From positions 1 to 32,232 of the forward strand of contig JASJCE010000012.1 of assembly GCA_030066155.1 (NCBI GenBank): 32,232 nucleotides of DNA, written 5' to 3'. Source of the stretch: Desulfobacterales bacterium (GTDB taxonomy: Bacteria; Desulfobacterota; Desulfobacteria; Desulfobacterales; JAFDCJ01). The notes under the pieces are model-generated. The model made no database searches. It saw only the letters and a list, made by a program, of their open reading frames with translations, and was not told where the DNA came from. Positions 3,843-32,112 of this stretch are shown piece after piece (position 1 is the first letter of the stretch; each line of letters starts with the position of its first letter). Position numbers and translations under genes: made by a program.

Positions 3843-3975
3843 AATGGAATATTGGAATGCTGGGGATCAAAAGCGGAGTTTGGTCCAGTTTTACGTCGAA
3901 GGCCGTGACACAAATATTAAATCGATCTCAATCCATCGAACCCAATATTCCAGTATTCCATTACTCCAGTACCAT
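3843..3975. repeat. Octamer inverted-arm element
   Basis: Left AATGGAAT ATTGGAAT GCTGGGGA; right AATATTCC AGTATTCC ATTACTCC AGTACCAT. Confidence 0.75.
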
Positions 3976-4105
3976 CGCCTTGATTTACGGCGCAGCCAAT
4001 TGCCTCTGACCCCTGATGACGGGAGTTTTCGATTTGGCATAGTTGCTGACTGATTAATATTATTCTTGTCATCCTGCGTGAAAGGTATAACCGGAGGAGG
4101 ATCAA

Positions 4106-5032
4106 ATGAGCAAAAAACATGTGGCGGTTTTTGGTGCAACCGGACAGGTCGGAACACCTTTGACTAAGAGTTTACTGAAACAGGGCCATGAAGTCACCGT
4201 AATTACACGTAGACGAAGTGCCGCCAATGAAACCGGGTTAAAGGATCACGAGAATCGGGGTGCGAGGGTGAAAGTTTGCGCCGAAATGCAAAGGGTTGAT
4301 GCCGTCGCAGATGCGATAAAAGGGTGCGATACTGTAGTTGCCTGTGTTCCGGGCTCAATACCCATCATTCAGGATTCGGAACCCATCTGGCTCAATGCTG
4401 CAATCAAAGCCGGTGTGGAACGGTTCGTTCCGACTGAATTCGGTTCCCACACCCAGGCGATTGGGATGGGCGATGGGGAAATCTTTGACTACAAGAAACG
4501 GTTCCATGAGATTTTGTTTGAATCCGGCATCGGCTGGACGCTTTATTATAACGGTGGATTCTTCGACTACTTTCTGCCGAATCTGCGGTTCTTTGACAAG
4601 ATAACGACGTTCGGTAATCTTGATCTGCCGATTTATACCCATGACATCGAGGATATTGGATATATCGGTGCACTGTCCATCACCGATGACCGCACGCTCA
4701 ATAAATGCGTCCAGGTTGACTACAATTCCCTTACCCAGAATGAAATGCTGGCTCTAATCAGAAAATACTGGCCGGATTATCCCTTCGAGTATGAGCACTT
4801 CTCGTCGGAATATATCATTGAGATGAAAGGGAAAGCCGGCAATGAAATCTCGGCCAAAAAAGGGGCGGAAACCGACCGACAGCGCTGGGGTATCAACTAT
4901 GTCAATTACGTCATCGGAAAACTGGCGGTTTTCAATGATCAGACGCTTCGCGCATCCGAGCTGTTCCCGGATTACGTATGCAAGCGTCCCGAGGAGGCGC
5001 TGAGTGATCCGAGATTTATGTTCGAAGAGTAA
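4106..5032 (+). CDS. NmrA-like / isoflavone-reductase-like NAD(P)-dependent oxidoreductase
   Basis: N-terminal Rossmann motif VAVFGATGQVGTPLTKSLLKQGHEVTVITRR; AGVERFVPTEFG motif; GGAGGA Shine-Dalgarno upstream. Confidence 0.88.
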   Translation: MSKKHVAVFGATGQVGTPLTKSLLKQGHEVTVITRRRSAANETGLKDHENRGARVKVCAEMQRVDAVADAIKGCDTVVACVPGSIPIIQDSEPIWLNAAIKAGVERFVPTEFGSHTQAIGMGDGEIFDYKKRFHEILFESGIGWTLYYNGGFFDYFLPNLRFFDKITTFGNLDLPIYTHDIEDIGYIGALSITDDRTLNKCVQVDYNSLTQNEMLALIRKYWPDYPFEYEHFSSEYIIEMKGKAGNEISAKKGAETDRQRWGINYVNYVIGKLAVFNDQTLRASELFPDYVCKRPEEALSDPRFMFEE

Positions 5033-5101
5033 GATTGATATAGCCGCAAAAAGGCGCAAAAAGCGCAAAAGTGAATTTTTTTTATCAGTAATATCAGTAA
5101 G

Positions 5102-5914
5102 TTAAAACGTTTCCTCGGCGAAATACTGACCCGGGGTCTTGCCGAGCGCTTTTTTGAACATGGATATAAAAGCGCTCGGGCTATCGTATCCCAGGTCGAT
5201 GGCGACAATTGTAACCGGCTCCTTCCTGCCTAAACGTTTTAACGCTTCTAAAATTCTGATCTGTTGCCGCCACTGCCCAAAAGTCATGCCGGTTTCCAGG
5301 CGAAAGCGCCGGGCCAACGTCCTTCCGGTTGCTCCGACCATTTTTCCCCAATCTTCCAATTTCCGATTATCTCCGGGACTGCTGGATAGGCGTTTGTAGA
5401 TCTTCTTTAACCTGGGATCTTCCGGGATGGGAAGTTCCAACGGAGCTATTGTCATACTCCGGATTTGATCCAATATCACTGTCAGCAGCCGCTCTTCCGG
5501 CCCGCCCAGGGGATAAAGACGCGGCATCGCCACAGCTTGGAGTATGAGTTCTTTCAGCAAAGGGGTTACAGCAACAACGCAGCATCTTTCAGATGGGCCT
5601 GGAAAATAATTCGGATCAATGTACAGCGTTCGCATGGAGAGATGATCTGATACAGCTATTTGATGGTCGGTAAGGGCCGGTATCCATACAGCACGGAGCG
5701 GGGGCACAACCCAAATACCGCTCCTGGTTGACACCGTCATGACTCCCGATGAAGCATACAACAACTGTGACCGGGTGTGCCGGTGGTGAGTGATCAAATA
5801 CCCGGGTGGGAACTCTTTGGACATCGCGACAATGGGTCGGGGAACACTGCCAATATCCTCTACAGGGTCTGGAGATGCAAACTTTGTCCTTTTCACGGTA
5901 TATTTTGTCTGCAT
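5102..5914 (-). CDS. AraC-family transcriptional regulator (cupin N-terminus, C-terminal HTH)
   Basis: HHRHTRSQLLYASSG cupin-like segment; C-terminal VTIVAIDLGYDSPSAFISMFKKALGKTPGQYF AraC signature. Confidence 0.92.
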   Translation of the reverse strand: MQTKYTVKRTKFASPDPVEDIGSVPRPIVAMSKEFPPGYLITHHRHTRSQLLYASSGVMTVSTRSGIWVVPPLRAVWIPALTDHQIAVSDHLSMRTLYIDPNYFPGPSERCCVVAVTPLLKELILQAVAMPRLYPLGGPEERLLTVILDQIRSMTIAPLELPIPEDPRLKKIYKRLSSSPGDNRKLEDWGKMVGATGRTLARRFRLETGMTFGQWRQQIRILEALKRLGRKEPVTIVAIDLGYDSPSAFISMFKKALGKTPGQYFAEETF

Positions 5915-5993
5915 AGCGCAAGAAAGATAACACCCTTTTCAGCTACGATCAACCATAAATGAAGTAGCAACTGTATGAAAAGAGGGTTCGACA

Positions 5994-7187
5994 ATGAAAC
6001 ACCGCCAGGTTGGAATATTGACTATCGGGCATCTTGCGACTGACATAAATCAGGGAGCTCTACCTGCCATGCTGCCTTTTTTTATTGCAGCTTATGATCT
6101 TTCCAATGCAGCCGCAGCGTTGATCGTTTTTGCTACAAACATGACCTCAAGTATCGTCCAGCCGCTGTTTGGCTATGCAGCGGATCGATTTTCAAAACCC
6201 TGGCTTTTATCCGCGGGCCTGATGCTGGCAGGTGTGGGGCTTGCTTTATCCGGAGTATTTCAGAGTTATGTCTGGATATTGGTACTGGGCATGGTCAGTG
6301 GGATAGGTATTGCAGCATACCACCCGGAGGCGGCGCGATTGGTCAATTTTGCCGCCGGAACCCGCAAGAGCACTGCGATGGGCATTTTTGGTGTTGGAGG
6401 CACAATCGGATTTGCCATCGGACCACTTGTCGTGACCGCAGCTCTTCTACAATGGGGATTGAGAGGAACGCTTGTCCTGATCCTCCCTGTAACCATTATG
6501 GCGTTGGTCATGGCAAGTCAGTTTTCGACATTTGAATCTCTTGAGAGGAAGCGGAATCGGAACCTTAGGACATCAAAGGCCAGGGATTTAAACGATAACT
6601 GGATCGCATTTGGACTGCTGACCATGACGGTCATTGGCAAATCAATTCTTTTCTATGCACTGAATACGTTTATTCCGATCTATTGGGTCATCGGTTTGAA
6701 TCAATCAAAAGCAGCGGGCGCCATGGCGCTAAGCATTTTTGCTGGCTCCGGAATTTTTGGAACCCTTTTAGGGGGCAGATTGGCAGACCGGATGGGACCA
6801 AAGAAAGTTGTCGTGTCAGGGTATTTTGGTGTAACGTTAATTCTTCCCATGTTGGTTCTAATTAGCGATGTCCATTTACTAACCCTTTCACTGATCCCGA
6901 TCGGTTTGATGCTCGGTACCACTTATAGTCCAACAATTGTCCTGGGTCAAACCTATCTCCCGAATCGTGTTGGGCTGTCATCGGGAGTGACACTGGGACT
7001 TGGCGTCGCGATCGGAGGTGGGGCTACACCGATTATCGGAAGAATAGCCGATATGTATGGCATTTGGTTTGCTTTGGCATCAATTGCCAGTTTGCCAATC
7101 GTAATCGCTGCATTCGCCTTGAGTTTACCAGGTTCCGGGCAAGTTGCCAATAAATCAGAATTAACCCAACCCGTCGAAGCCGGTTGA
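5994..7187 (+). CDS. MFS transporter, fosmidomycin-resistance (Fsr)-like
   Basis: About 12 hydrophobic segments; ILTIGHLATDINQGALPAMLPF N-terminus; YHPEAARLVN motif typical of Fsr-like MFS. Confidence 0.87.
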   Translation: MKHRQVGILTIGHLATDINQGALPAMLPFFIAAYDLSNAAAALIVFATNMTSSIVQPLFGYAADRFSKPWLLSAGLMLAGVGLALSGVFQSYVWILVLGMVSGIGIAAYHPEAARLVNFAAGTRKSTAMGIFGVGGTIGFAIGPLVVTAALLQWGLRGTLVLILPVTIMALVMASQFSTFESLERKRNRNLRTSKARDLNDNWIAFGLLTMTVIGKSILFYALNTFIPIYWVIGLNQSKAAGAMALSIFAGSGIFGTLLGGRLADRMGPKKVVVSGYFGVTLILPMLVLISDVHLLTLSLIPIGLMLGTTYSPTIVLGQTYLPNRVGLSSGVTLGLGVAIGGGATPIIGRIADMYGIWFALASIASLPIVIAAFALSLPGSGQVANKSELTQPVEAG

Positions 7188-7226
7188 AGCGAAGCGTAAA
7201 TCCCGTTTTCGCGGGGAACCAAGAAA

Positions 7227-7364
7227 ATCAATCACGAAAGCACGAAATGACCCCGGTTAAACAAAAAAGAAGGTTTAACTGGGCAGGCGAAAACACGAAA
7301 TAAAGCTGACAACTTTTTCGTGTTTTCTAACTTTCGTGATTTCGTGATAAAATATCTTTTCATA
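7227..7364. repeat. Octamer inverted-arm element, copy A (with internal 37-bp insertion)
   Basis: AATCACGAAAGCACGAAATGA...CGAAAACACGAAATAAAGCT...TTTCGTGTTTTCTAACTTTCGTGATTTCGTGATAAAATATCTTTTCATA. Confidence 0.88.
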
Positions 7365-7450
7365 ATCTGTGTAATCTGCGAAATCTGTTGATTAAAATTA
7401 CGGTTCGCAGAAATCAACTTTTGCGCTTTTTGCGGCATTATCAATCTTAG

Positions 7451-7636
7451 TTGATGAAACGATACCATGTGGGGTACATCAACAAAAATGCACCCGGGGG
7501 CTCTTATGTTTCATTGATCGCTGATGTCCCTGAATTATACGAAAAATTCGGATTCAAGAAATGCTCCCCGAAAAGCGAAGGGATGTATTTATACCGGATA
7601 GAGTTAGGATCTGCTATTCGGTTTGACAGCGAGTAG
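7451..7636 (+). pseudogene. C-terminal remnant of a GNAT-type acetyltransferase
   Basis: Short ORF containing ADVPELYEKFGFKKCSPKSEGMYLYR, typical of a GNAT C-terminus; no upstream acetyl-CoA-binding portion; overlaps the 3' end of the opposite-strand CDS. Confidence 0.55.
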
Positions 7637-8212
7637 CAGCATATCCGGAAGTTTAATTTCTGACCAACCATCCAGGCTAATTTGTTGACCGTTTAAATAA
7701 GCGGATTTCAGATTCAGCCTGAATTCTTCTGATTGGCGGCGAAAAAAAGCCAGCAATTGTTCTTTTTTAATCAGAATGCCCTTTTCGAGGAGGATGGGTC
7801 CAAGATCGATGACCAGCAAATTATATAGCTTTACTGTGACATGACCGTCTTGGCCTGAGGCGTTTTTGCCATCGCTCCTGCAAGAGATTGACCGGCGCAA
7901 AGAAGCCAATGGACCACCCCGACGGAGAGTTGCTCCGGCCAAACCGGGCATCGCGCCTGAAAGCGCCAGGACCGAGCGATTATTAATGCAGGCGGTGCCG
8001 ATATCATCAACAGCCTTAGCATCCAGGAATATCGTTTTTATCCGGTTTTCGACATAATTGTCGTCCAAACCGAGGGCATTGCGGAGCAGGGTCTTGATGC
8101 TGCATCCCACCGGTATTTCAACCACAAACCCATGCCGCAGGAGAGAAAAAAAGAGATGAATCCTCTCGCGGGGGACGTTCAGAATTAGTTTTGCCACACG
8201 ATGATCGTTCAC
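7604..8212 (-). CDS. Hypothetical protein with MoaD/ThiS-like segment, downstream of AOR
   Basis: ORF 7604-8272; a GTG at 8212 is a more likely start because the ORF N-terminus runs through a terminator-like hairpin; position next to AOR. Confidence 0.6.
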   Translation of the reverse strand: MNDHRVAKLILNVPRERIHLFFSLLRHGFVVEIPVGCSIKTLLRNALGLDDNYVENRIKTIFLDAKAVDDIGTACINNRSVLALSGAMPGLAGATLRRGGPLASLRRSISCRSDGKNASGQDGHVTVKLYNLLVIDLGPILLEKGILIKKEQLLAFFRRQSEEFRLNLKSAYLNGQQISLDGWSEIKLPDMLLLAVKPNSRS

Positions 8213-8243
8213 GATCGATCCTTTGAAAAGATACCAATAGAAA

Positions 8244-8266
8244 GGGAGCCCTGACGCCGGGCTCCC
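8244..8266 (-). terminator. Rho-independent-type hairpin downstream of AOR
   Basis: Perfect 8-bp stem GGGAGCCC-(7 nt)-GGGCTCCC, followed on the minus strand by TTTCTATT. Confidence 0.7.
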
Positions 8267-8294
8267 TGACATTCAACCAAAGATGCATTTCGGC

Positions 8295-10043
8295 CTAATA
8301 GCTGTGAACCTGATCAAGTTCTTGATCCGATACCTGGAAGGTTATATCGTGCGGCGGCAGCTTTTCTTTTTTGAAGTAATCCGGCAGCCGGTCATCTCTA
8401 TTGGTAAATCCAGCAGCAGCGTTGAATTCCCGCTCGCTTTTGAGAATGGATTTGCCCAGTTCGGTCACATCATCAGCTGTCATGTTCGAACCGGAAAAAG
8501 CATTAATCAAATCGACCATCGCCTGAAATGTTTCCGGTTGATCCAACAACGGAAAGGCAATGAACAGACACATACCGGTGGCGTCAATCGCTGCGGTAGC
8601 GATTTGAAGATTTTTCGACAGCTCGGCCTGGCCTTCCGGTGAAAGTGGATCGGTTTTGCCGCCGACCCCAGCGACGTTCGACGCCACGGCATAGCCGGCG
8701 GTATGATCGGCGCCCATGGTGCTGGTGGCATAGGTCACCCCGATGCCCTGAATTCCGCGGGGATCGTAAGCCGGCATGGCCTGACCCTTGACCACCGGCA
8801 CCCGTTCGACGCCAAGCACCTTTCCGGTGACCTCCGCTCCGCTGCCAAGGACACGACCCAGAGGAGAGCCTTTGCCAACCTCCTTAACCAGGTTAATGGC
8901 AGCTTCGGCGTCTCCAAATTCGGCAATTCCAGCCTCCATGGCCACGGCAACAGTGGCACCCATTTCAATGGTGTCCAGCCCGTAATCATCGTCCAGTCGG
9001 TCAATTTGGGCGATTGCATCTAAATCATTGATGCCGCAGTTGCCGCCATGGGACCATACCGTTTCATACTCGGGCTGTTTGGTCACATAATTGCCGTCTT
9101 TGTCGTAAAAAGTCCCTGAGCAGCGAATCACACAGCCGCGATGACACCCATGGGTTGCGGAACCTTCACCGCCGCGGGCATTCTCGAGCTCTGCCTGGGT
9201 CTCGCCGCTGATCATTTCGCACCCGTCAAAACGACCCAATTGAAAATTTTTCGTCGGATAAGCCCCGGCTTCGTTGATTATGTTGGTCATCACATTGGTT
9301 CCGAAGGCAGGCAGTCCCTCACCGGAGATCTCATGTTTTCTCAGACCGGCCACAAATTCCTTGTTGGCAGTTTTGAATTTCTCTGCGTCAGCCGGAGATC
9401 TCATCTTACAGCCCGCATCGTCGACGACAATGACCTTAACGCCTTTTGCGCCCATAACCGCACCGACTCCGCCGCGACCGGCATGACGAGTCGGTCTTAA
9501 CTCCATATCCGTGAACGCAACCGAAGCGCCTGCAAGCTTCATTTCACCGGCCTGACCGATGGATATGCAGGCGATCTTTTCGCCGTATTCGGCTTTCATC
9601 TTATCGACCAGATCGTAATTACCGAGCATGCGCAGACTATTGTCGGTTTGAATCTGCACGCCATCATTGTTAATGAACACTTTGTAAAGGCTATCCTCTG
9701 CGGGCTTTCCTTCCAAAACAATGGCAGCATAGCCCAACCGGCCCAGCATCTGGGATGGCTGCCCGCCGGCATTGGCCTCCTTGATCCCCCCGGTCAGCGG
9801 GCTTTTGCATCCCACGGAAATCCGACCGGACATGGCCGCTGCAGAGCCGCTTAAAAGCCCCGGCGCAATCACGAGTTTATTGTCTTCTCCCAGGGGATGA
9901 CACGACGGTGGAACTTCTTTGGATATGATTGCCGATGTCAAACCTCTACCGCCCATACCGGCGTAATCGCCTAAAGATTCAGTTTTCGCTTCAGGGCCGC
10001 CGTTGGCGCCCATATTTATTCTCAATATTTTGTCCATTGTCAT
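8295..10043 (-). CDS. Aldehyde:ferredoxin oxidoreductase family (tungsten/molybdopterin, 4Fe-4S)
   Basis: GGRGLTSAIISKEVPP N-terminal motif; HAGRGGVGAVMGAKGVKVIVV; Cys motif GCHRGCVIRCSG; YGLDTIEMG; DATGMCLF. Confidence 0.95.
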   Translation of the reverse strand: MTMDKILRINMGANGGPEAKTESLGDYAGMGGRGLTSAIISKEVPPSCHPLGEDNKLVIAPGLLSGSAAAMSGRISVGCKSPLTGGIKEANAGGQPSQMLGRLGYAAIVLEGKPAEDSLYKVFINNDGVQIQTDNSLRMLGNYDLVDKMKAEYGEKIACISIGQAGEMKLAGASVAFTDMELRPTRHAGRGGVGAVMGAKGVKVIVVDDAGCKMRSPADAEKFKTANKEFVAGLRKHEISGEGLPAFGTNVMTNIINEAGAYPTKNFQLGRFDGCEMISGETQAELENARGGEGSATHGCHRGCVIRCSGTFYDKDGNYVTKQPEYETVWSHGGNCGINDLDAIAQIDRLDDDYGLDTIEMGATVAVAMEAGIAEFGDAEAAINLVKEVGKGSPLGRVLGSGAEVTGKVLGVERVPVVKGQAMPAYDPRGIQGIGVTYATSTMGADHTAGYAVASNVAGVGGKTDPLSPEGQAELSKNLQIATAAIDATGMCLFIAFPLLDQPETFQAMVDLINAFSGSNMTADDVTELGKSILKSEREFNAAAGFTNRDDRLPDYFKKEKLPPHDITFQVSDQELDQVHSY

Positions 10044-10700
10044 TCCTCCTCATTTGTTAACGGTTGACAATTAGGGGCTAGATTAAAACATAATTCAACC
10101 TTAACCCCGGACTTCACCTCCACGATTACCATGGTTAGGCAACCTCCAATACCCCTTCCAAGCATAAATTATGCTCGCAAATTATAATTAAAGATAGGAC
10201 ATCGCTTTATCAAAGCGAATAATACAAAAGCGGTGAATTGTGTTTCGGCTTCGCTAAGGCTACGCCGCGACAAGTCCAACTTTGCTCTGCGAGTCACGAC
10301 AGGACACGTTCGAATTCGTTTTAGGAGCTTGGTGATTCGCTGTAGATCTTCGACCCCACAAGACGACGGGGCAAGGCAGCTTAACATATTGAGGCGTCAG
10401 TTAAACAGAACAAGTAAATATTCTGATAACGAAAACCGGCGTCGTTGTCAATATCGATATTCCCAATGTCGGTAAAAAGAAAAGTGGCCGTACCGGTGGG
10501 TAGATTTGCCATAGAGTGATGATAAGGCATTCTCGGTCATCGGGCGAACCAATTGATTGCGATGCGCCATAAGGGCCAGGAATACGCCCTGCGCCAACAG
10601 TATACGATGGCATTAGTCGGCAGTCACCACCGTCTTGACATTGCAGGATAATTTTATGTAAATTAGCTGTAGAGATAGCTAAATATCGGTTTGAACATCA

Positions 10701-10922
10701 ATGAAACATCGCCATATCAACATTACAGAAAATGAATGGAGTGCGGCTGTAGTGCATTCGATCTGGGAGCGAGGCCTGGAAGAAGATATATGCGCACTCA
10801 TTCGTGAGGTGAAAATAAATGCCAAAGCTGCCGATGCGGTTAGAAGGGCTATACCCCTTTCGGGAGTATATGGCTGGCCGAAATTCTTCAGGCTGTATTT
10901 AGAGAAAGTTTATGGAGAATAG
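10701..10922 (+). CDS. Small hypothetical protein (73 aa)
   Basis: Intact ORF preceded by a TTGACA-like -35 at 10635 and an inverted repeat TTAGCT/AGCTAA. Confidence 0.45.
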   Translation: MKHRHINITENEWSAAVVHSIWERGLEEDICALIREVKINAKAADAVRRAIPLSGVYGWPKFFRLYLEKVYGE

Positions 10923-10934
10923 CGAGGATATCTA

Positions 10935-11072
10935 TTGGCAGAGCCTAAACCGAACGATCTGGACCAAATTGATCTGACTGTATACAAGGGCATCCAACCC
11001 CCATTTGATTCCTGGGACTTTATCGTGAGAATTTGCGAAGAAATATCCGTGGAATTTGGTGACAGGGTGTAA
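10935..11072 (+). CDS. Possible small hypothetical protein (45 aa, TTG start)
   Basis: In-frame TTG...TAA with plausible composition (LAEPKPNDLDQIDLTVYKGIQPPFDSWDFIVRICEEISVEFGDRV); follows the 10701 ORF by 12 nt. Confidence 0.3.
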   Translation: MAEPKPNDLDQIDLTVYKGIQPPFDSWDFIVRICEEISVEFGDRV

Positions 11073-11201
11073 GATGAACTTCAATAAGCCTTCAGGTCTG
11101 GGCTTCAATATAAGCTCTTTGCTCGTTTAAAATGTCGTGCAGATTCGGAGCGCTTGGCCGCTGATTGGAATTGCTGGGTGTCCGTTAGATTTCTGCTGAT
11201 T

Positions 11202-12984: not shown

Positions 12985-13247
12985 ATTCGATATATTCTCC
13001 AGTAACCCTTCAGGATTCAAAGTTCATTGGCAACAATTAGATATCGTCCATTTACGCCAATAACTTTAACAGGTCATTTCTATACATAAGAGGGATTTAG
13101 GAATTTAGGAATTTCGATGCTAACAAATTAGATCTAATTCCACTAAGCCCAGCATTCCATTACTCCGGCAGTCCACGGCGATGTTTTAGTGATATTGGCA
13201 GGTTCAGAGCGCAGCCAGAGCCAAAAGAGAAGACCCTGAAATCGATC

Positions 13248-14772: not shown

Positions 14773-14826
14773 ATAAAATTTTGTGCCAATATAAAATTTC
14801 GTACCAATATAAAATTTTGTACCAAA
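14773..14826. repeat. Three tandem 18-bp units ATAAAATTTTGTGCCAAT-type
   Basis: ATAAAATTTTGTGCCAAT / ATAAAATTTCGTACCAAT / ATAAAATTTTGTACCAAA read directly. Confidence 0.95.
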
Positions 14827-14975: not shown

Positions 14976-15116
14976 GTGCGAGGGACAAGGTCCAGGGTGT
15001 AGGGTTTAGGGTATAAGGTTTAGGGTCTGAGGCTAAAGATGGAAGGATAAAGCCGGAACTCGTAACTCGCAACCGAAGACAGATGTCAGAAGACAGAGGA
15101 CAGAAGAAAGAAGATG
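14976..15116. repeat. Degenerate heptamer arrays (GTTTAGG-, GTAACTC- and GAAGACA-like units)
   Basis: GTGCGAG GGACAAG GTCCAGG GTGTAGG GTTTAGG GTATAAG GTTTAGG GTCTGAG..., then GGAACTC GTAACTC, then GAAGACA GATGTCA GAAGACA GAGGACA GAAGAAA GAAGATG. Confidence 0.85.
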
Positions 15117-15193
15117 GAAAGTTAAGAAGGTGAGAAAGTGAGGGCGGCCGTTGCGAGCATCCAGCAGCTGGTCTCTGATCTTCAGTTTGTTTC

Positions 15194-15228
15194 AATCCGA
15201 AATCCAAAATCTAAAATCCGAAATCGAA
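15194..15228. repeat. Heptamer array AATCCGA x5, abutting dinB start
   Basis: AATCCGA AATCCAA AATCTAA AATCCGA AATCGAA, then CC-ATG. Confidence 0.92.
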
Positions 15229-16436: not shown

Positions 16437-16464
16437 ATTCCAATCATCAAATCCCAAATCCCTG
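16437..16464. repeat. Heptamer array downstream of dinB
   Basis: ATTCCAA TCATCAA ATCCCAA ATCCCTG. Confidence 0.65.
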
Positions 16465-16754
16465 GCCCAGACCGAATTAACTCCTACTATATTTATTGCC
16501 TCTCATCTCTAAGCGCGAAACGGACCGTGGGATACACCAATCAAGTCGCGCTCTCCGAGGCGTAGGCTACGAGCCGGAGGCCAGGGCGGGCTCAATTAAA
16601 TTACAATAACCAAAATTCCAAATATGGACGTTCATTTTTTTCCATTTGTTGCTTGTGAATTTTGATTTTTTTGATTTATATACATTTGTGATGTGAAACC
16701 TATTTATTCTCGTTTGGTTTCCCTGAATTTGTTGAAATTTAAGGAGTTTTTATC

Positions 16755-20725: not shown

Positions 20726-20740
20726 GATTTAAAAGAATTA

Positions 20741-21016
20741 ACGTCCAACATCGAACATCCAACGTCGAACATCCAATGAGGATGGCGCTCTCCGAGGCGT
20801 AGGCGCCACACCCCTACGAGCCGGAGGCTTCGCTTTGTCGATTTTTTAACGAACAAATAATGCTGAACTGCTAAATAAAAAACACAAAATTAGAAAAGGC
20901 GAGGCAAGGATAGTAGGTCAGATATGATAACGTCACTTGTTACTGAGTCTATCTCTGAAATGACAGAATTCCATATTCGAAGTTGGACGTTGGACGTTCG
21001 ATGTTGGACGTTCGAT
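20741..21016. repeat. Intergenic element with inverted heptamer arms (ACRTCSA x5 / GTTSGAY x5)
   Basis: Left ACGTCCA ACATCGA ACATCCA ACGTCGA ACATCCA; right GTTGGAC GTTGGAC GTTCGAT GTTGGAC GTTCGAT; palindromic module inside left arm. Confidence 0.85.
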
Positions 21017-23622: not shown

Positions 23623-23797
23623 ATGACGAATGACAATTGAAAATTGAATAATTAAGGCATGCTTTCGTTCTAAAATGGGCTGATTATGGTTGAGCTTGGT
23701 TTTATTGCAGCAAATGTATTGGAATGCTGAACTTGTAAACTATATAAAAATGACAGAATTCCATCATTATTCATTCTTCAATATTCAATAGTCATTT
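23623..23797. repeat. Intergenic element with inverted heptamer arms between convergent genes
   Basis: Left ATGACGA ATGACAA TTGAAAA TTGAATA; right arm (minus) AAATGAC TATTGAA TATTGAA GAATGAA; arms abut both stop codons. Confidence 0.8.
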
Positions 23798-24454: not shown

Positions 24455-24642
24455 ACCCCCCTTGCTGTTCACAGCATGCAGTTTCCTGATCGGGAAAATA
24501 CAGCCAAATTACGCAAAATATACAGTGTTCACTCTATTTATCATGCTACGTTTTTTTAGTAAACATTAATACATCCACAAATGACATCTAGGTCCGGTCT
24601 CTTCGGCGCATACCAATAGCCAAATCACTGAGAGCTCCCAAT

Positions 24643-25068
24643 ATGTTTAAGATTTTAATCGTAGATCCGAACAATCCGTTTCGTCGATTGTTGAAAATGG
24701 TTCTTGGCGGTCAGTTTTCATTCGCTGCCATCCAGGAGGCCCCGGACGGCAGCCAGGGGTGGAAGACCATACAGACCTTTAAACCGGACTTAGTTTTCCT
24801 GGAAATCCATTTGCCGTCTGAAAGTGGTCTTGAACTGGCCCGTCGGGTAAAGCGTGAACGCCCTGAAACGATTATCGTTTTATTGACCAGCTACGATTCA
24901 CCGGAATACCGCGCTGCAGCAACCCAATCAGGTATCGAGCACCTGGTTCCAAAGGATGATTGGACCGCTGAAGACATGATTGAACTGGTCCAGACCATTC
25001 TGACGGACCTTCATATCAACGATCATGCGCTTCAAAGTGGCTTTCTGCCCCAGGGCCAATCCTCCTAA
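24643..25068 (+). CDS. Stand-alone receiver-domain protein with Glu at the phospho-acceptor position
   Basis: KILIVDPNNPFRRLL, KPDLVFLEIHLPSESGLELARRVKRERPETIIVLLTSYDS, HLVPKDDW. Confidence 0.88.
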   Translation: MFKILIVDPNNPFRRLLKMVLGGQFSFAAIQEAPDGSQGWKTIQTFKPDLVFLEIHLPSESGLELARRVKRERPETIIVLLTSYDSPEYRAAATQSGIEHLVPKDDWTAEDMIELVQTILTDLHINDHALQSGFLPQGQSS

Positions 25069-25072
25069 TGGT

Positions 25073-25258
25073 TTAAGCGGTTGATGCCGCTGTATATCCA
25101 CCCCGGGAAGAAGCCAGCAGCGTTTGTTCAGGTTTCCCTTTCCGTTTTGTCTCGACTCTTTTTTTCTTCGACCCACCGATATTCTTGCTGTTATCTGATT
25201 TCTCCTTGGCCTTGGCGGCAGCCAGCGCAATGATTGCGGTAATCACATAATACTTCAT
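25073..25258 (-). CDS. Small Lys-rich protein with hydrophobic N-terminus
   Basis: MKYYVITAIIALAAAKAKEKSDNSKNIGGSKKK...; GGGAGC SD upstream of ATG 25258. Confidence 0.45.
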   Translation of the reverse strand: MKYYVITAIIALAAAKAKEKSDNSKNIGGSKKKRVETKRKGKPEQTLLASSRGGYTAASTA

Positions 25259-25617
25259 AATTTGCTCCCTGATTTGGACCACCGTCCCGGTTCGACCGGC
25301 GGTCCGCCGGTTTAAGGTTTAAACGGAGGGAATGTCGCCCCGTTTTCTATCCGTTCCAACTCTAATGCGGATTATCCCGGATTGCTTGACATTGCGCGCC
25401 AACCTGTATACCGACGGTGCCAGAACCAAAATAATACGTAAAATTTGCCATATTGGCCATTTTTCTCATATCTACAGTTGGTTATACGACCGAAAACCCA
25501 TAACTAATAATTCGATAAATCTGATCGATTGAATTTAAGGCAATTAGTTTCGGCAGTTGCATATACTATATAAATATACAATATTATTAGTAATATTTAA
25601 AAGGGGGAGGGGTATCT

Positions 25618-25815
25618 GTCGATTTCAAAAAATTAGTTCTGATCTTGCTATTCACCTGTCTTGCAGTCGGTGAATTTACAAGTGGACCCGTCCACCATAA
25701 AAGGGAGGTTGGGCGGGTTTTGAAAATCGTTGCTGAGGTGATAACGGTAAATCGCGTGAACGCATATCAGGCTTCTTCGGATGCGCAAGAGCTGTTGCTC
25801 ATCCCGATAGAATGA
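25618..25815 (+). pseudogene. Signal-peptide-bearing small ORF lacking a canonical start codon
   Basis: AAGGGGGAGGGG SD-like run then GTC-GAT-TTC...; translates as (V)DFKKLVLILLFTCLAVGEFTSGPVHHKREVGRVLKIVAEVITVNRVNAYQASSDAQELLLIPIE*. Confidence 0.35.
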
Positions 25816-26018
25816 TTACAGTACTTGTGTTCTCGTTTTATCGGCATTATCCAATCCACTTTTATCCACAACCGTATCAGGCATTTAAATATGCAACTCA
25901 TGAAGCAAATTGCGGGAAGTAAGTCTAAGAAAGATTATGGAAGACGTTATTTCAGCTGAAATTCGAGGCTATAACGAGGAACGAATAACTTCCCAATAGG
26001 ATAGCTACAGATAGAGCA

Positions 26019-26486
26019 ATGTCGGATAAGCGAAACTTTTTTCTAACCATTATTTTTCTGACGATATGTTTCGCCCTAAATGCCTGCACCGGGGCTAAAT
26101 ATGGCAGGCTGACGGCCACTCCGGACGTCAAGCGATCTTTTGAAACGTATGAGGTGTTGCCAAGCCATAAATATTTCTATCGGGGAGCGAGAAGTAAGCC
26201 CACCGTAATTGTCGGCATCAATCAAAATTATGAAATGAATTTGAAACTCTGGGTTCCCCTGGATCCTGAATCGAATGAATTTCGCACACAGATCGACCGG
26301 GTTTCCCTCCAGGGTATGGGCAACATAGCCCAGCCATGGGGATTCAGGATTCTGGATAATGACGGTAATGACGTGGGCGTGTGGTACTCTGCCATTCGTA
26401 TGGCGGCCGTCGCCATAACAGACGACCGCCAGATCGTCAAGTTGCAGCCCGGATCCATGGTGGCCATGGGAGATCAGATCAGATAA
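26019..26486 (+). CDS. Lipoprotein, hypothetical
   Basis: N-terminal hydrophobic segment and lipobox ALNAC. Confidence 0.75.
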   Translation: MSDKRNFFLTIIFLTICFALNACTGAKYGRLTATPDVKRSFETYEVLPSHKYFYRGARSKPTVIVGINQNYEMNLKLWVPLDPESNEFRTQIDRVSLQGMGNIAQPWGFRILDNDGNDVGVWYSAIRMAAVAITDDRQIVKLQPGSMVAMGDQIR

Positions 26487-27499
26487 TGATGCACTACAGT
26501 CACCTCGCAACTGCAACCAATATACTCTGGAAATTGATTGAAGCGAACGGGCATGATCCCGGTGGCCTGTATCAGGAAGTGGGCATAGATCCTGGTTTGC
26601 TGAACAAGCCCGGTGCACGAGTACCATCCACCCTGGTCAACCAGCTCTGGGAAAGGGCCTCCGAGCTGATTGACGATCCCTGTTTCGGTCTGAAAGCCAG
26701 CAAATATTGGCACCCATCCTATTTCCATGCCCTCGGATATGCGTGGCTTGCCAGTCACAGCCTGCGCGACGCCCTCAATCGCTTTGTCCGTTATCTTCGT
26801 ATCGTATCCGAAAAGATCTTTATCACTTTAAAGGATGAAAGAGATGGATTTACATTGATACTCAGCTACAAGATCCTGGGTATGCGAGTTCCGGCACAAA
26901 TCGATATGGGCATGGCCATGACCATTCACATCTGCCGCCTGAACTTCGGTGAGGACCTCAAACCCGTCGCCGTCAATATCATGCACGATCCCCCACCCTG
27001 CGCCGGGGAATACCTTACCCTTTTTGGTGTCCCGGTTCAGTTTTCGGCAAAAAGAGACAGTATTACCTTTGCCAGATCAGACGTTGACAAATATTTACTG
27101 GGTGCCAATCCGCAACTTGCCAGGTTAAATGATCAGGTGATGATTGAATATCTGGCCAAACTGAATAAAGACGACATCATCGATCGGGTTACAGCCGCCA
27201 TCGTCGATATGCTTCCATCCGGGGGAGTTGCCGATGAAAAAATTGCTGAATCGCTGAACATGAGCGTGCGCAGCCTGCAGCGGCGGCTCAAGGAGGTGGG
27301 GACCACTTTTCGGACGATCCTCGATATGGTCCGCAAGGATCTGGCTGCAACATACGTTCGTGATCCGGAAATTGAATTGGCTGAAATAGCATTTCTGCTG
27401 GGATTTTCGGAACAAAGTGCGTTCTCGCGCGCCTTCAGGCGCTGGACGGGAACTTCTCCGAGCGAGGCCCGCAAATCCGGTGAAACGGGAGCTGTATGA
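26486..27499 (+). CDS. AraC-family regulator with AraC-binding-like N-terminal domain (OruR/ArgR-like architecture)
   Basis: MSVRSLQRRLKEVGTTFRTILDMVRKDLAATYVRDPEIELAEIAFLLGFSEQSAFSRAFRRWTGTSPSEAR; ATG overlaps the upstream stop (TAATG). Confidence 0.93.
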   Translation: MMHYSHLATATNILWKLIEANGHDPGGLYQEVGIDPGLLNKPGARVPSTLVNQLWERASELIDDPCFGLKASKYWHPSYFHALGYAWLASHSLRDALNRFVRYLRIVSEKIFITLKDERDGFTLILSYKILGMRVPAQIDMGMAMTIHICRLNFGEDLKPVAVNIMHDPPPCAGEYLTLFGVPVQFSAKRDSITFARSDVDKYLLGANPQLARLNDQVMIEYLAKLNKDDIIDRVTAAIVDMLPSGGVADEKIAESLNMSVRSLQRRLKEVGTTFRTILDMVRKDLAATYVRDPEIELAEIAFLLGFSEQSAFSRAFRRWTGTSPSEARKSGETGAV

Positions 27500-27559
27500 C
27501 GGAGCACAGAATATCGAATCCACCAGCGGCGGCGCTAGTGTAAAACTTCAACTAGATAT

Positions 27560-27625
27560 CTCGCAGAGCCCGCTGAGCACACAGAGCTTTTTTGATTGTT
27601 CTCTGAGAACTCTCTGGACTCTGTG
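27560..27625. repeat. Inverted nonamer arrays forming a hairpin-like element
   Basis: CTCGCAGAG CCCGCTGAG CACACAGAG - CTTTTTTGATTG - TTCTCTGAG AACTCTCTG GACTCTGTG. Confidence 0.85.
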
Positions 27626-27655
27626 AGAGATTAATTTGCTTAAGTTTTATTTTGA

Positions 27656-27757
27656 TCAGCCTGGCCGGTATACCTCTTGAATCTGTTTGATAATCCTTCC
27701 AGGGTTCATCTTGAGGTCACTGATCGGTACAATGTCTTCGGAGAATTTTATGCTCAT
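27656..27757 (-). pseudogene. Truncated Phd/YefM-type antitoxin
   Basis: 33-aa ORF MSIKFSEDIVPISDLKMNPGRIIKQIQEVYRPG*, resembling the N-terminus of prevent-host-death family antitoxins; no partner toxin adjacent. Confidence 0.5.
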
Positions 27758-27878
27758 ATTTGTCTCGCTCTTTTTTAATATGGCTGTTAACAGGTCTCAG
27801 TATAGCACCGGTTAATAGTACCGCCAATAGTCGATAACCAGAGCTGGATGTTTCTGGAGCACCGTCTGCTGCTACAGC

Positions 27879-28544
27879 CTATTGCATAATTTTCTCCTGC
27901 ACCAGTTCAATATCCACTGCAGGAACTCCGGGAAGTCCGTCTGCCTTGTAGCGCACGAACGTCATCTCCGGCAAGCGGTGCCAGTAGGTGGACTGCCAGA
28001 ACAGGGACAGAAAGCCGCGCAGCCGGGCTGTCATTTTAACTGCACGAATCTGTTGACCATTCAAGGTGATCTCCTCTTCTGCGGCCCGCGTGGCCCGGAA
28101 CTTTTTAATGGACAGATCTTCCGGTGCGACCACAATAAAATCCTTGCTATTCTCGTTTGCCTTCAAAAAATCCAGCAGGCCGAACTCCGAATTTTGCAGC
28201 CAGATTCGGTCTCCGGCTTCCAGGGATTTGTTAACCGCCTGGCCTTTGGATATCCCGCGAATGACAATTTTACTCGCGTTTCGCTCGGCCTTGAAATCGG
28301 TATTTTCACCGCTATCCGCATATTCCCAGCGCACCATTGACCCGTCGGAATTGTAATAGTATAGCTGTTTCACATCCCGGTAGGTTGATCGATAGGTGAT
28401 ACCGTTCGCGTTTTTTTCGATCGTTATGCACAGCTCGGAAACGAGATCGTCGCTGCGAACCTCATATGTTAGATCACAGGCAAAACTTTCGGTGCTCATC
28501 AATAGCAGGATTACAGAAAAAAACGTCATTACAGGTTTAAGCAA
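27879..28544 (-). CDS. Secreted hypothetical protein (DUF6134-like)
   Basis: Signal peptide MLKPVMTFFSVILLLMSTESFA; YYYNSDGSMVRWEYADSG. Confidence 0.7.
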   Translation of the reverse strand: MLKPVMTFFSVILLLMSTESFACDLTYEVRSDDLVSELCITIEKNANGITYRSTYRDVKQLYYYNSDGSMVRWEYADSGENTDFKAERNASKIVIRGISKGQAVNKSLEAGDRIWLQNSEFGLLDFLKANENSKDFIVVAPEDLSIKKFRATRAAEEEITLNGQQIRAVKMTARLRGFLSLFWQSTYWHRLPEMTFVRYKADGLPGVPAVDIELVQEKIMQ

Positions 28545-28563
28545 ATTCGTTGCCTCCAGTTTT

Positions 28564-29298
28564 CTAATCTATTTTCACAATCATAAGCGTTACATCATCA
28601 TGAATCAACGATCCACCGGCAAATCGACGAATTTCATCAATCACAATATGCTTTAAATCAAAAGGCGAGTTTTCCGGATGTTGATTAAGCAAATCTTTTA
28701 GGCGGTTTGCCGTAAAAAATCCGTTCCGCTGAGAATACGCCTCAACGACCCCGTCCGAGTAAAGAAATAGACAGTCGCCGCTGTCTATTTTTGTTGCGCT
28801 TTGGCTGTAAACCGTTTCAGGCAGAACACCTAAAATCGGGTCGTTGCTGCCCTTGGCCAATTTTAATTCCTGCCACATGTTTTCATTATAAGGTTTGATC
28901 AGGGCCGGCGGATGACCGGCGTTGACGTAGTAAAGATTGCCGTCAAGTTTGTAAAAGGAAGCCATAACCACTGTTGTCATCGCCTCGAGCCCGATTCTCA
29001 GTGCAGTTCGGTTCAATTCTGTCAGCAGTTTATCACCATCTGTAGAGTTCATATTCATCTTGAGTGCATCGTAGATACAGGTGCTGATGTTGCTGACATC
29101 TTCGCCGTGGCCATTTACATCAGCCAGAATCATTCGGGTCAGCATCTTGTTTTCACATAAACTCAGGTAATAGATATCACCGCCTTTGCCGCCGTCGCTG
29201 GCCATCGAATAAAGCGAAGCCGTCATACCGGCACTGGCAACATCGTCATTGCAATCCCGAATACCTCCCCAGATTTCACCACAGCTTAAATTGTGCAT
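28564..29298 (-). CDS. PP2C-type (SpoIIE-like) serine phosphatase
   Basis: GGKGGDIYYLSLCENKMLTRMILADVNGHGEDVS; YVNAGHPPALI; LFLYSDGVVEA; HDDVTLMIVK. Confidence 0.93.
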   Translation of the reverse strand: MHNLSCGEIWGGIRDCNDDVASAGMTASLYSMASDGGKGGDIYYLSLCENKMLTRMILADVNGHGEDVSNISTCIYDALKMNMNSTDGDKLLTELNRTALRIGLEAMTTVVMASFYKLDGNLYYVNAGHPPALIKPYNENMWQELKLAKGSNDPILGVLPETVYSQSATKIDSGDCLFLYSDGVVEAYSQRNGFFTANRLKDLLNQHPENSPFDLKHIVIDEIRRFAGGSLIHDDVTLMIVKID

Positions 29299-29432
29299 TT
29301 TGACACCTTTTCGTAGTGGGCCCTCGCAGATTAGTTAATTTTTTTTATGGTCTCGTAGACGTCAAAATACTTGATGATATGGACTCCTTTACCCAATCCC
29401 TAAACCGGAATAGCCGTAACCAAAAAAAGAGG

Positions 29433-29532
29433 AATCACGAAAGCACTAAATGACGAAAATACGAAATAAAGCTAACATATTTTTCGTATTTTCCAACTTT
29501 CGTAATTTCGTGATGAAAATATCTTTTCATAA
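29433..29532. repeat. Octamer inverted-arm element, copy B
   Basis: AATCACGAAAGCACTAAATGACGAAAATACGAAATAAAGCTAACATATTTTTCGTATTTTCCAACTTTCGTAATTTCGTGATGAAAATATCTTTTCATAA; clearly homologous to copy A. Confidence 0.9.
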
Positions 29533-29751
29533 AGTGTCGCAGATCCGCCTTTGTAGGACAAAGAATTCGCCTTTAGGAATCTATTGTCAATTTATCCCCG
29601 ATTTCATTACACAATACCCAAATTTCGCGCATAATATTACCAACGGTAAATAGGCCTGCTGTTTAGAAGCTTGCAACCAATTAAGATCATTTTAAAAATT
29701 CATATAATGATTGGCATTGGAAGAGGCAGCGCTAAGATTGTGAGGGTGGCT

Positions 29752-29793
29752 CCGTAGGATTTTTCCAAATCTAAAATTTGGACCTTCCTACGG
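29752..29793. repeat. Long interrupted hairpin
   Basis: CCGTAGGA...TCCTACGG outer 8-bp stem and TCCAAAT-ctaaa-ATTTGGA inner 7-bp stem. Confidence 0.8.
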
Positions 29794-29835
29794 GCCGGAG
29801 CAGGTCCGAGATTTTTCATGACCTTTTATTATCAT

Positions 29836-30246
29836 TCATCTTATCCGCACAAAAAGAACATCTATATTCTGCCTGGTCGGAGCGTGGTAATAATATCCGA
29901 TCAGGACATCTTTTTCGGCATCATAGACAAGGGTGTAAGCAGAACCGGGATACCCTTTGTCGCGCAGTTCCAGTTCAATTTTGATTTTTTCTCCGTGTGC
30001 TGACGCCCGGGCATGAGCGACATTGATCGGCCTGGGATTGAAATAGCCGGCCTCTAGTTGACCATCCGGGTGAATCCGGTTCACCTCGATTATATAGCCG
30101 CCATCAATTCGCTGCCAGCGGCCCAATAAAGGTCCGAAATCGTCTGCCCTGATGGCATCATTCGCCCCGAACCAGAAAATCACCAAAGTTGCTGCTGTTG
30201 CCGTCAATATGAAATGTCTTGACGATAATTTTTTCTGTTTCAATCT
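29836..30246 (-). CDS. Secreted hypothetical protein
   Basis: Hydrophobic N-terminus from MRLKQKKLSSRHFILTATAATLVIFWFGANDAIRADDFGPLLGRWQRIDGGYIIEV. Confidence 0.65.
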   Translation of the reverse strand, partial: RLKQKKLSSRHFILTATAATLVIFWFGANDAIRADDFGPLLGRWQRIDGGYIIEVNRIHPDGQLEAGYFNPRPINVAHARASAHGEKIKIELELRDKGYPGSAYTLVYDAEKDVLIGYYYHAPTRQNIDVLFVRIR

Positions 30247-30427
30247 CATAACCAGGACTCCAATCAGGCCAATTTTTAAGAAATCCGGAGTTAAAAGGGA
30301 ATTGATATTGTTAGTACACAACTATCCATGCTGAATTGGGCTGTCAAGGGGGACTTTGTAAAACAATGGGCAGTAAGTAATACTTGCATTGTCATTGGTT
30401 TACTGACATTCGTAAATAAATTAATGA

Positions 30428-30823
30428 ATGACGCATAAACAGCTTGAGCATGCAATTCGAGCAGCATGTGAAGTTTCTGAAGATAATGAAATCTGGATAT
30501 TTGGATCGCAAGCAATTCTCGGGGAGTTCCCGGATGCACCGGAACCACTTCGCGCGTCTATCGAGGTGGATGTCCAGCCAAAAAATCGGCCCGACAAAAT
30601 TGACGCCATTGATGGCGTATTGGGTGAGCTGTCACTGTTTCATCAGACGCATGGTTTCTATGTGCATGATTTGCCCATCGATGAAACAGCAACGCTTCCC
30701 CAGGGATGGCAACACAGAGTAACAGCAGTTTTTGACGAAATTGCAACCAACGGAAAAACCGGATGGTGTGTGGAAGTTTCGGAACGCTACATTTTATTTA
30801 TTTTGCCTGATCTCTTTCCTTGA
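30428..30823 (+). pseudogene. Truncated DUF6036-like (nucleotidyltransferase-like) protein
   Basis: Intact N-terminal part (EIWIFGSQAILGEFPDAPEPLRASIEVDVQPKN...TNGKTGWCVEV), then an abrupt unrelated-looking tail SERYILFILPDLFP*. Confidence 0.45.
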
Positions 30824-30841
30824 CGAAAGTTTAAGCATAGC

Positions 30842-30875
30842 TTAGTCTATGACTAAACTAATTTAGAGGTCTAAA
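30842..30875 (+). promoter_or_regulatory. Two adjacent palindromes upstream of the Phd-type antitoxin (candidate operator)
   Basis: TTAGTC-tat-GACTAA and TTTAGA-gg-TCTAAA, the second containing the AGAGGT SD-like sequence. Confidence 0.6.
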
Positions 30876-30880
30876 GCATT

Positions 30881-31138
30881 ATGAAAGTCGGAATACATGA
30901 GGCCAAAACCAAGCTTTCCAAGCTTATCCCCGCCGTGCTCGCAGGCGAGGAGGTAATCATCACCAAGGCTGGCCGTCCTCTTGTGAAACTGGTTCCCGTT
31001 GAGGAACCAGGCAGGGAAAGGCCGCTTGGTGCCTATTCGGGCAAGGTCCGGATCAAAGGTGACCTTTTGGAGCCCCTGCCGAAAGAAATTTTAAATGAAT
31101 TTTGGCAGGTAAAAGACGAAGATGCGTTATCTACTTGA
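30881..31138 (+). CDS. Phd/YefM-family antitoxin
   Basis: MKVGIHEAKTKLSKLIPAVLAGEEVIITKAGRPLVKLVPVEE. Confidence 0.92.
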   Translation: MKVGIHEAKTKLSKLIPAVLAGEEVIITKAGRPLVKLVPVEEPGRERPLGAYSGKVRIKGDLLEPLPKEILNEFWQVKDEDALST

Positions 31139-31508
31139 CACGCATACTTTTCTCTGGATGGCGGCGGAACCGGCGAGGCTCTCCGAAAAAATCACTGGGA
31201 TCGTCCAGGTTTCAGAAAACCGGTTGTTGTTGAGTGCGGCAAGTGGCTGGGAGATCGCCTTGCTTTGGCATCTCAAACGTCTGGAGTTGCCGGATCATCC
31301 CCGGCGGTTCATTCCCGAGGCCCTGCAAAGACTCAGTGTAATCCCCCTTCCTATTGGCTTTGATGCCGCCATATCGGCAGCCACACTCCCCCTTGTCCAC
31401 CGCGACCCGTTTGACCGTATCATCATCGCTGAAGCCCTCAAAGAAAACGTGTCTGTTCTTACTAAAGACAAAATGTTTACGGAATATGGTGCCCGTACAC
31501 TGTGGTGA
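31122..31508 (+). CDS. PIN-domain toxin (VapC-like)
   Basis: MRYLLDTHTFLWMAAEP; LLLSAASGWEIALL; HRDPFDRIIIAEAL; overlaps the antitoxin by 17 nt. Confidence 0.93.
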   Translation: MRYLLDTHTFLWMAAEPARLSEKITGIVQVSENRLLLSAASGWEIALLWHLKRLELPDHPRRFIPEALQRLSVIPLPIGFDAAISAATLPLVHRDPFDRIIIAEALKENVSVLTKDKMFTEYGARTLW

Positions 31509-31782
31509 TCAATGACAATACCCCGCCTTTGAACCGGAAACCTTAATTTAACAAACCATTTTACCGTACGGCTTTCCTACAATTATCGGCGAGATTATCG
31601 CCTTTAATCAATAAAAAAAATGATTGAGCTGTTGCCTTCCCTCTTTACAAACTTTTAACCGATATAAATCTTGATTGAGATTTGCCCATGGTCATCGTCA
31701 TCATAAAAATGAACGCAATGCCTTATAAGCGGCGCCTCTGGCCTAAAAAAACGGCCGGGCTGATCAAAAAAGAAACTGATGA

Positions 31783-32112
31783 ACATCCAACATCGAACGT
31801 CCAACGTCCAACGTCGAATATTGTATTCTATCGATTTATTAAAGGAACAACATGCAGTGCCTGTGTTGCTCCAGTGAATACACCGTTGCAAATTTGACCC
31901 GACTTCCATTTGACAAGCTCGGGCAGACGTACACCGCAGGCTATAATTTGTTCATTAATTAAAATCGATAAAGCGCAGCCTCCCCTCCGGCCTGTAAGCC
32001 TATGAAGCCTACGGGCTGGAAGCGGGCTCGTAGGGGATGTGGCGCCTACGCCTCGGAGAGCGTCATCCACATTGGACGTTCGATGTTGGAAGTTGGACGT
32101 TCGACGTTCAAT
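31783..32112. repeat. Intergenic element with inverted heptamer arms, second copy of the 20741-type element in opposite orientation
   Basis: Left ACATCCA ACATCGA ACGTCCA ACGTCCA ACGTCGA; right ATTGGAC GTTCGAT GTTGGAA GTTGGAC GTTCGAC GTTCAAT. Confidence 0.87.

Follow-up and report, generated by a model that had tools for sequence, protein, structure and literature searches.

The intervening sequence (IVS) of the Coxiella 23S rRNA gene carries three tandem GACAGAT heptamers before the open reading frame (ORF) of an S23 protein, in a number that varies between strains; it has been termed a selfish element and is excised by RNase III, and an older proposal, as cited in the same paper, sees in its ORF the gene of a mobility component (PMC4990558). 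The S23 or 23S_rRNA_IVP proteins (family PF05635, four-helix bundles; IVP below) include a solved member, 2GSC of X. campestris, which papers citing Lin et al. 2006 describe as a homopentamer, a ring of five four-helix bundles (PMC4990558, PMC3936711). The protein Avd of diversity-generating retroelements (PDB 4DWL) is homologous to PF05635 (PDB 2GSC) (PMC10053308). Paired repeats of 7, 8 or 9 nt are by themselves also prior art (PMC2700814, PMC4692102). Here we analyse arrays of such repeats in a stretch of 32 232 nt (the window), which is a whole contig (JASJCE010000012.1, C92) of a draft genome of a Desulfobacterales bacterium (GCA_030066155.1; 6.66 Mb in 543 contigs, 87% complete, 5% contaminated), and in a larger sample of that genome. 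The paired period-7 arrays, with some of period 8, are probably the ends of elements that lie between genes, mostly lack a gene of their own and are related to 23S rRNA intervening sequences. To our knowledge, no function has been assigned since 1993 to the S23/IVP gene that rRNA intervening sequences carry; in the open-access literature we found no report that such arrays generally flank IVP genes, or that the dispersed pairs without a gene are related to them.

Inverted arrays and the IVP genes between them

The genome sample comprised ∼1.1 Mb taken as stretches, with two thirds of the contigs picked for repeat matches; contigs drawn regardless of repeats were analysed apart and have figures of their own. 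Genes were called by a simple codon-usage ORF picker, so that 'intergenic' is approximate here. In 238 kb of intergenic DNA of the sample, self-similarity at lag 7 was 0.307 against 0.259 in dinucleotide shuffles (z 53), with binomial z of 20 and 13 at lags 8 and 9. Further peaks stood at lags 14, 16, 18 and 21, with a smaller one at lag 6, while lags 4, 10, 11, 12 and 17 gave no excess in the same sample. The z values for lags 7, 8 and 9 were 24, 10 and 7 in the contigs drawn regardless of repeats, and the intergenic DNA of the window alone gave 6.7 at lag 7 and 3.4 at lag 8 over dinucleotide shuffles. At a local score of at least 13, intergenic DNA held 300, 72 and 23 arrays of periods 7, 8 and 9, shuffled DNA none, and a 3.5 times larger amount of coding DNA 14, 1 and 3; periods 4–6 and 10–13 were represented by 0–2 arrays each. 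Extrapolated from the unselected contigs, the genome would hold ∼2000 arrays and 316 inverted pairs.

Within 400 nt an inverted partner was found for 97 of 338 period-7 arrays (23.5 expected, from arrays at other loci) and for 17 of 79 period-8 arrays (5 expected); same-strand partners of period-7 arrays were not enriched (26 versus 21 expected). Inverted pairing is real, but for a minority of arrays. Paired elements number 104 in the 1.1 Mb, with a median length of 235 bp, and arm polarity is constant within each unit family. A sequence-only reading of the window had proposed a genome-wide network of one architecture with several unit families, to be given up if the excess at lags 7, 8 and 9 were lacking; the excess was found, and the network with it. 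Calling the architecture constant went too far, given the fractions of partnered arrays just cited. That the two arms share a period is true but no separate observation, because the arms are inverted copies of each other. The same reading could not assign the repeats to a named class. For those of period 7 a link to IVP/S23 elements can now be made, on the following evidence.

All ten PF05635 genes of this genome that match above the curated cut-off lie between inverted 7-mer or 8-mer arms, 0–180 nt from the ORF; at one of them (L110) the distal arm is lost at the contig end and the adjoining sub-terminal motif is seen. The same inverted-flank score was reached by 22 of 770 other coding sequences of the genome. 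We then considered 135 IVP loci with both flanks, from this genome, its genus, its phylum and a GTDB-wide collection that spans Planctomycetota, Acidobacteriota, Verrucomicrobia, Bacteroidota, Patescibacteria, Nostoc and others, and scored inverted repeats between the 350-nt flanks. A score of at least 14 was reached at 75 loci (56%), as against 4.9% when flanks of different loci were combined; the period was 7 in 65 of the 75. Among foreign loci the score was reached by 67 of 126 IVP genes and by 4 of 67 other ORFs of the same loci (Fisher P = 8 × 10−12). Arms upstream of the IVP gene were G-rich in 67 of 73 cases, and Nostoc loci too (L199, L221) carry heptamer arms. The IVP proteins match the solved structures PDB 2RLD and 2GSC, and the best named match to one of them, 84% identical, comes from a deltaproteobacterial metagenome-assembled genome. 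Housekeeping genes that seemed enclosed as well (e.g. L076 9700, L025 2128) were set aside: their arms have opposite polarity and belong to neighbouring elements.

Similarity of arms goes with similarity of IVP proteins, with a Mantel r of 0.60 over all pairs, 0.64 within the genus and 0.47 between independent samples (P = 0.0005 each); in the GTDB-wide set alone, which holds one IVP clade only, the correlation was not significant (r 0.10). Clade-A arms from distant phyla follow a common grammar, GA[T/A]T[T/G][C/T]N, with 5.6 bits per heptamer versus 1.2 after shuffling. Among 118 genomes from the phylum, arrays of five GAWTNNN units were present in 31 of the 70 that have an IVP match and in 2 of the 48 that have none (P = 6 × 10−7, kinship ignored), and all 15 genomes with at least five GAWTNNN matches are IVP-positive. 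In one genome of the phylum sample that has IVP genes (G119) the reversed control pattern (TWAG every 7 nt) was matched 100 times, which suggests another heptamer grammar there.

These observations bear on independent simple-sequence expansion, in which slippage would make the heptamers, inverted pairs would arise by chance or by fold-back copying, and IVP genes would share the niche. Such a process would fit the unpaired state of most arrays, the long near-perfect arrays that are also present, and the heptamer excess seen in many bacteria (PMC4692102, PMC4679880). It does not sit well with units that are degenerate at fixed positions instead of being homogenised, with IVP genes being enclosed far oftener than other genes, with arms that covary with the IVP protein, or with a flanking motif common to different units (below); slippage is already strongly disfavoured, and we hold it distinctly unlikely.

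Relatedness of gene-less forms to IVP elements is shown by orthologous sites. Between pta and ackA the genome studied here (G000) has an IVP element with ATTGCGG arms, where congener G006 has the same arms around a 17-nt spacer, G001 a GAATGCGG pair and other congeners arrays only. At a second site G004 has an IVP gene (L126), and in G000 an 86-nt spacer separates the same arms (L076 9498–9643). Four further IVP elements (L116, L117, L118 and L142) have ends that are found again on either side of gene-less cores of 4–240 nt. The simpler reading of these sequences is that the gene-less forms derive from gene-bearing ones by loss of the gene, not by gain. Exact termini set aside, the gene-less copies have the marks of miniature inverted-repeat transposable elements (MITEs), being short, multicopy, gene-less and bounded by inverted ends; for the four elements just named the ends also match between gene-less and gene-bearing forms, and for GTTGGAC arms no gene-bearing partner was found.

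Different unit families are linked to one another as well. A motif, TTTAAAAATM-GAYAGAATWCCWT, directly precedes the array in ∼40 elements with wholly different units; the arm families with GAYAGAATWCCWT are at least seven: GTTGGAC, AATCCAA, ATTCAAT, CATTCGAC, CAATTCCT (period 8), CAACCTTG and TTTAGGCA (period 9). Thus the claim of the sequence-only reading that unit sequences differ completely between families holds for the units themselves, and has to be qualified by a 13-nt motif common to at least seven families. This motif, GACAGAATTCCAT, has 47 intergenic matches in the genome sample. A hairpin, CTCCGAGGCGTAGG...CTACGAGCCGGAGG, of one window element (element 1, 20740–21012) recurs inverted in another (element 3, 31781–32116) and at 16529–16590, and the hairpin core of the GTTGGAC elements of the window stands between GAATGACG or GAATATTG arms in congeners. 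Because motif and hairpin core recur with different arm units, the units are exchangeable around a conserved interior.

Mobility, position and RNA stems

On the reading favoured here, the elements consist of an array, a core and the inverted array. Full copies have as their core a single gene for an IVP protein; most copies have a gene-less core, like that of a miniature non-autonomous element, and would be mobilised in trans by full elements. The commonest arm size is five heptamers (∼33–37 nt), and the IVP homopentamer may recognise these heptamers: arms have about five units and the ring has five subunits, so that the idea of one pentamer for some five heptamers is attractive. It makes for a concrete prediction, a pentamer with about five heptamers of stated consensus. 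A strict rule of five units was dropped, since period-8 arms peak at 35–37 nt (∼4.5 units), and a constant length of ∼35 nt fits as well as a constant unit number. A bolder form of the idea, which we put forward tentatively, would make IVP/S23 proteins pentamers that bind nucleic acid sequence-specifically, with one heptamer per subunit (five units, ∼35 nt; GAWTKYN in clade A). Together with inverted arrays they would define a widespread and hitherto unrecognised kind of minimal mobile element, spreading with no recognisable recombinase and present in hundreds of gene-less copies per genome; the IVS of 23S rRNA would then be those members that happened to insert into rRNA genes.

Y1 transposase as the mobiliser and reverse transcriptase as a regular partner were rejected. 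Only one of 12 Y1 (REP-associated tyrosine transposase, RAYT) genes has even a single array nearby, and of the four reverse transcriptase genes in the genome two (L309, L312) have stray arrays, in no consistent pattern. Two Y1 transposase genes (L103, L107) have ends of their own, AATTTAGGGGACGTCC...GGACGTCCCCTAAATT, and represent a different element type.

Several observations weigh against, or limit, the view of the arrays as ends of IVS relatives moved with the help of IVP. Approximately 70% of arrays have no inverted partner. Conversely, 44% of the 135 IVP loci have no detectable arms; none of 20 such loci that were checked lies in rRNA, and some other IVP genes belong to defence operons with no evident space for arms, so that IVP genes without arms form a substantial class. 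A clean empty site showing a target duplication was not found, and we know of no catalytic activity of IVP. The covariation of arms and protein shows, at the level of sequence, that they are inherited together as a unit, which by itself is no proof of binding. Between GTTGGAC arms no IVP gene was found, and in this family conserved sequence reaches 40–60 nt past the arms, so that the arms need not be true termini. No IVP link was found for three further families of the window, CACGAAA (7231, 29434), GGAATATT (3843) and CAGAG (27550). The arms of one GTTGGAC element match each other no better than those of different elements do, and on the sense strand G–U mismatches in arms are no commoner than A–C ones (76 versus 72).

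Beside these points stand two observations on particular loci. IVP genes on plasmids of Gloeocapsa and Planktothrix (L315, L316) lie in tightly packed DUF1156, DISARM and BREX operons. Outside GTTGGAC arms (e.g. L043 2998–3224, L048 11211–11488) there is an outer inverted GAAACT...AGTTTC pair, and GTTGGAC copies often adjoin GTTTCAG heptamer arrays, as a nested composite.

Paired elements are unevenly placed among genes: 5 of 91 lie in divergent intergenic regions, against 31% at random (P = 4 × 10−9), and their median distance to gene 3′-ends is 77 nt versus 179 nt. A role in 3′ processing, suggested by the sequence-only reading, is compatible with this position near gene 3′-ends and away from promoters. 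If the elements belonged to transcript 3′-ends, the arms would fold into long stems in the RNA, which RNase III would process or which would stabilise mRNA ends, and would be kept for that reason; the RNase III excision of the Coxiella IVS (PMC4990558) would also fit. A maintained RNA stem is, however, unsupported, because G–U mismatches show no excess over A–C and the arms do not covary within elements; selection for sense-strand stems was looked for and not seen. Congeners, moreover, have different elements or none at orthologous sites, and selection against insertion into promoters gives an equal bias of position. We therefore consider a 3′-end function unlikely as the explanation of the elements, and retain their reading as IVS relatives.

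Elements of the window

The window contains no IVP gene, and every copy in it is gene-less; tRNA genes and Rfam families were not found in it either. Its arrays were called with TRF (Tandem Repeats Finder) among other scans. Paired arms and unpaired blocks (14981–15225, 16448–16462) that the sequence-only reading had noticed were found again, and three arrays were added to them (5045–5070, 13091–13114 and 14773–14825).

Element 1 (plus strand, period 7) has a left arm of AACGTCC/AACATCG units at 20740–20777, a TRF call, and a right arm of GTTGGAC/GTTCGAT units at 20975–21012, an inverted copy of the left one; pairing extends over 20740–20782/20970–21012 with 37 of 43 positions matching. The motif GACAGAATTCCAT stands directly before the right arm (20962–20974), and the inner hairpin module lies at 20785–20830 (limits approximate, read from the sequence). 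The genome sample contains ∼37 paired copies related to this element. The hairpin is a dispersed module that also occurs outside GTTGGAC arms, in the window at 16529–16590 and in congeners G003 and G007.

Element 3 belongs to the family of element 1 in opposite orientation, with arms on the minus strand at 31781–31818 and 32079–32116 (32 of 38 positions paired) and the motif, as GATAGAATACAAT, adjoining the first arm at 31820–31832 (minus strand). Close to it, at 30881–31508, two small overlapping genes resemble, as read from sequence, an antitoxin and PIN-domain toxin pair.

Element 2 (plus strand, period 7) fills the space between two convergent genes. Its left arm of GAATGAC/TTGAAAA units (23629–23655) begins at the stop codon of a histidine kinase gene, and its right arm (23770–23796) finishes at the stop codon of a response regulator gene; GACAGAATTCCAT precedes the right arm at 23752–23764, and 37 of 49 positions pair over 23615–23663/23755–23803. 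At the same site (23629–23796) congeners have a different element, an array or nothing.

The elements of period 8 lie on the plus strand. In element 4 the left arm (GGAATATT, 3843–3864) pairs with the right arm (TATTCCAG, 3941–3972) at 19 of 22 positions (3843–3864/3941–3962), and the family has 30 matches in the genome. Elements 5 and 6 are copies of each other: element 5, a copy of 29434–29514, has arms at 7231–7247 (CACGAAAG) and 7316–7348 (TTTCGTGA), with 16 of 17 positions paired over 7231–7247/7332–7348, and element 6 has arms at 29434–29466 (CACGAAAG) and 29482–29514 (TTTCGTAA), with 26 of 33. Element 7 (plus strand) corresponds to a period-9 pair that the sequence-only reading had placed at 27560/27599. 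The pair is present at 27550–27586 (CGCAGAGCC) and 27601–27636; it is weaker than the others (26 of 37 positions), and its internal 9-mer is loose. This CGCAGAG/CTCTGTGAG family (27550–27636), with 13 copies that are 85–95% identical in the genome sample, shows the greatest uniformity of all families seen and, on that account, is probably the youngest of them. The CACGAAA, GGAATATT and period-9 families of the window share only the architecture and may be different elements of like design.

Unpaired arrays of period 7 are an AGGGTTT array at 14981–15026 (plus strand), a mosaic of ACTCGTA and then GAAGACA at 15054–15119 (plus strand) and an array at 15194–15225 whose minus strand reads GATTTCGGATTTTAG, in agreement with the clade-A grammar; a short CAAATCC heptamer block occupies 16448–16462 (strand unassigned). 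A period-9 array (CGCAAAAAG) at 5045–5070, strand likewise unassigned, belongs to another dispersed family, the repeat GCCGCAAAAAGGCGCAAAAAG at 5036–5110, with 49 chains in the genome sample.

Comparison with described systems

The IVS of 23S rRNA genes (Coxiella, Leptospira and others) resemble the present elements in having a single IVP/S23 gene and inverted-repeat ends, and the Coxiella unit family GACAGAT occurs in the window itself, within the mosaic array, at 15075–15114. The elements encode an IVP/S23 protein or derive from a form that does, a statement that does not extend to two 8-mer families of the window (CACGAAA, GGAATATT) or to its 9-mer ones; their inverted ends could form a stem, which covariation does not favour. 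They differ in lying between protein genes, in ∼316 paired copies per genome (extrapolated), mostly without the gene. Since their flanks are protein genes, not rRNA, and the window has no Rfam match, we call them IVS-like and not IVS in the strict sense. Compared with the Avd system, the elements lack a reverse transcriptase and a pair of template and variable repeats.

With MITEs and with repetitive extragenic palindromes (REP) and their paired form, REPIN, the elements share shortness, dispersal in intergenic DNA, inverted ends and presumed movement in trans. They differ in that the ends are degenerate tandem arrays and that the Y1/RAYT genes typical of REP/REPIN are not associated (one of 12 lies near a single array); no target-site duplication was found. 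The short tandemly repeated repetitive (STRR) sequences of cyanobacteria and the TAACTGA repeats of Beggiatoaceae (PMC4679880) are likewise intergenic tandem heptamers, so that the name STRR could be applied to the arrays as a description that is silent on mechanism; those repeats have been described as direct, essentially without inverted pairing, with one inverted TAACTGA case.

The architecture is also that of classes 1–4 of Geobacter metallireducens (Aklujkar et al. 2009, PMC2700814), in which tandem 7-, 8- or 9-mers are paired on opposite strands at variable distance and dispersed over a deltaproteobacterial genome; at the level of architecture, three to five tandem units on opposite strands, the present elements agree with them, while the unit sequences appear to be others and no link to IVP was drawn there. 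The Geobacter repeats were read as sites of the nucleoid proteins IHF/HU with a function in global regulation. This reading has in its favour the like architecture, four octamers or five heptamers mostly paired on opposite strands. It was offered as a speculation in PMC2700814, and it leaves unexplained the enclosure of IVP genes, the covariation of arms and IVP and the gene-bearing and gene-less alleles at one site; for the elements studied here we judge it highly improbable.

Rehm et al. 2015 (PMC4692102) described heptamers in Xanthomonas (GGGAATC) and in Nostoc (GGGGA(T/C)T) that resemble the present ones in several respects: they are degenerate and intergenic, prefer four units, form 70–75 convergent inverted pairs per genome, are rare between divergent ORFs and lie near ORF ends. 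They were read as G-quadruplexes. DNA structure, quadruplex or cruciform, would suit the convergent pairs and the four-unit preference of Xanthomonas; the main families here, GTTGGAC, GATTTCG, GAATGAC and CAATTCCT, have no GGG runs, and so lack what a quadruplex takes, at least four runs of three G or more. Because most families are without such runs, the quadruplex cannot be their common property, and a cruciform finds no support in covariation of the arms within elements; a structural explanation of this kind seems scarcely credible to us. Read on the opposite strand, GGGAATC is GATTCCC, which fits GAWTNNN, and XCC0516, whose structure has been solved, is an IVP protein of the same species.

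The heptamers of cyanobacteria, Xanthomonas, Geobacter and Beggiatoaceae have been reported separately, and each was explained differently. The relation to intervening sequences that we favour would, if true, account for a major part of the repeats that lie between the genes of many environmental genomes. It gives a partner to both sides of the comparison: the repeats described in these systems would be the ends of elements, and the protein known from 23S rRNA intervening sequences a candidate factor for their recognition.

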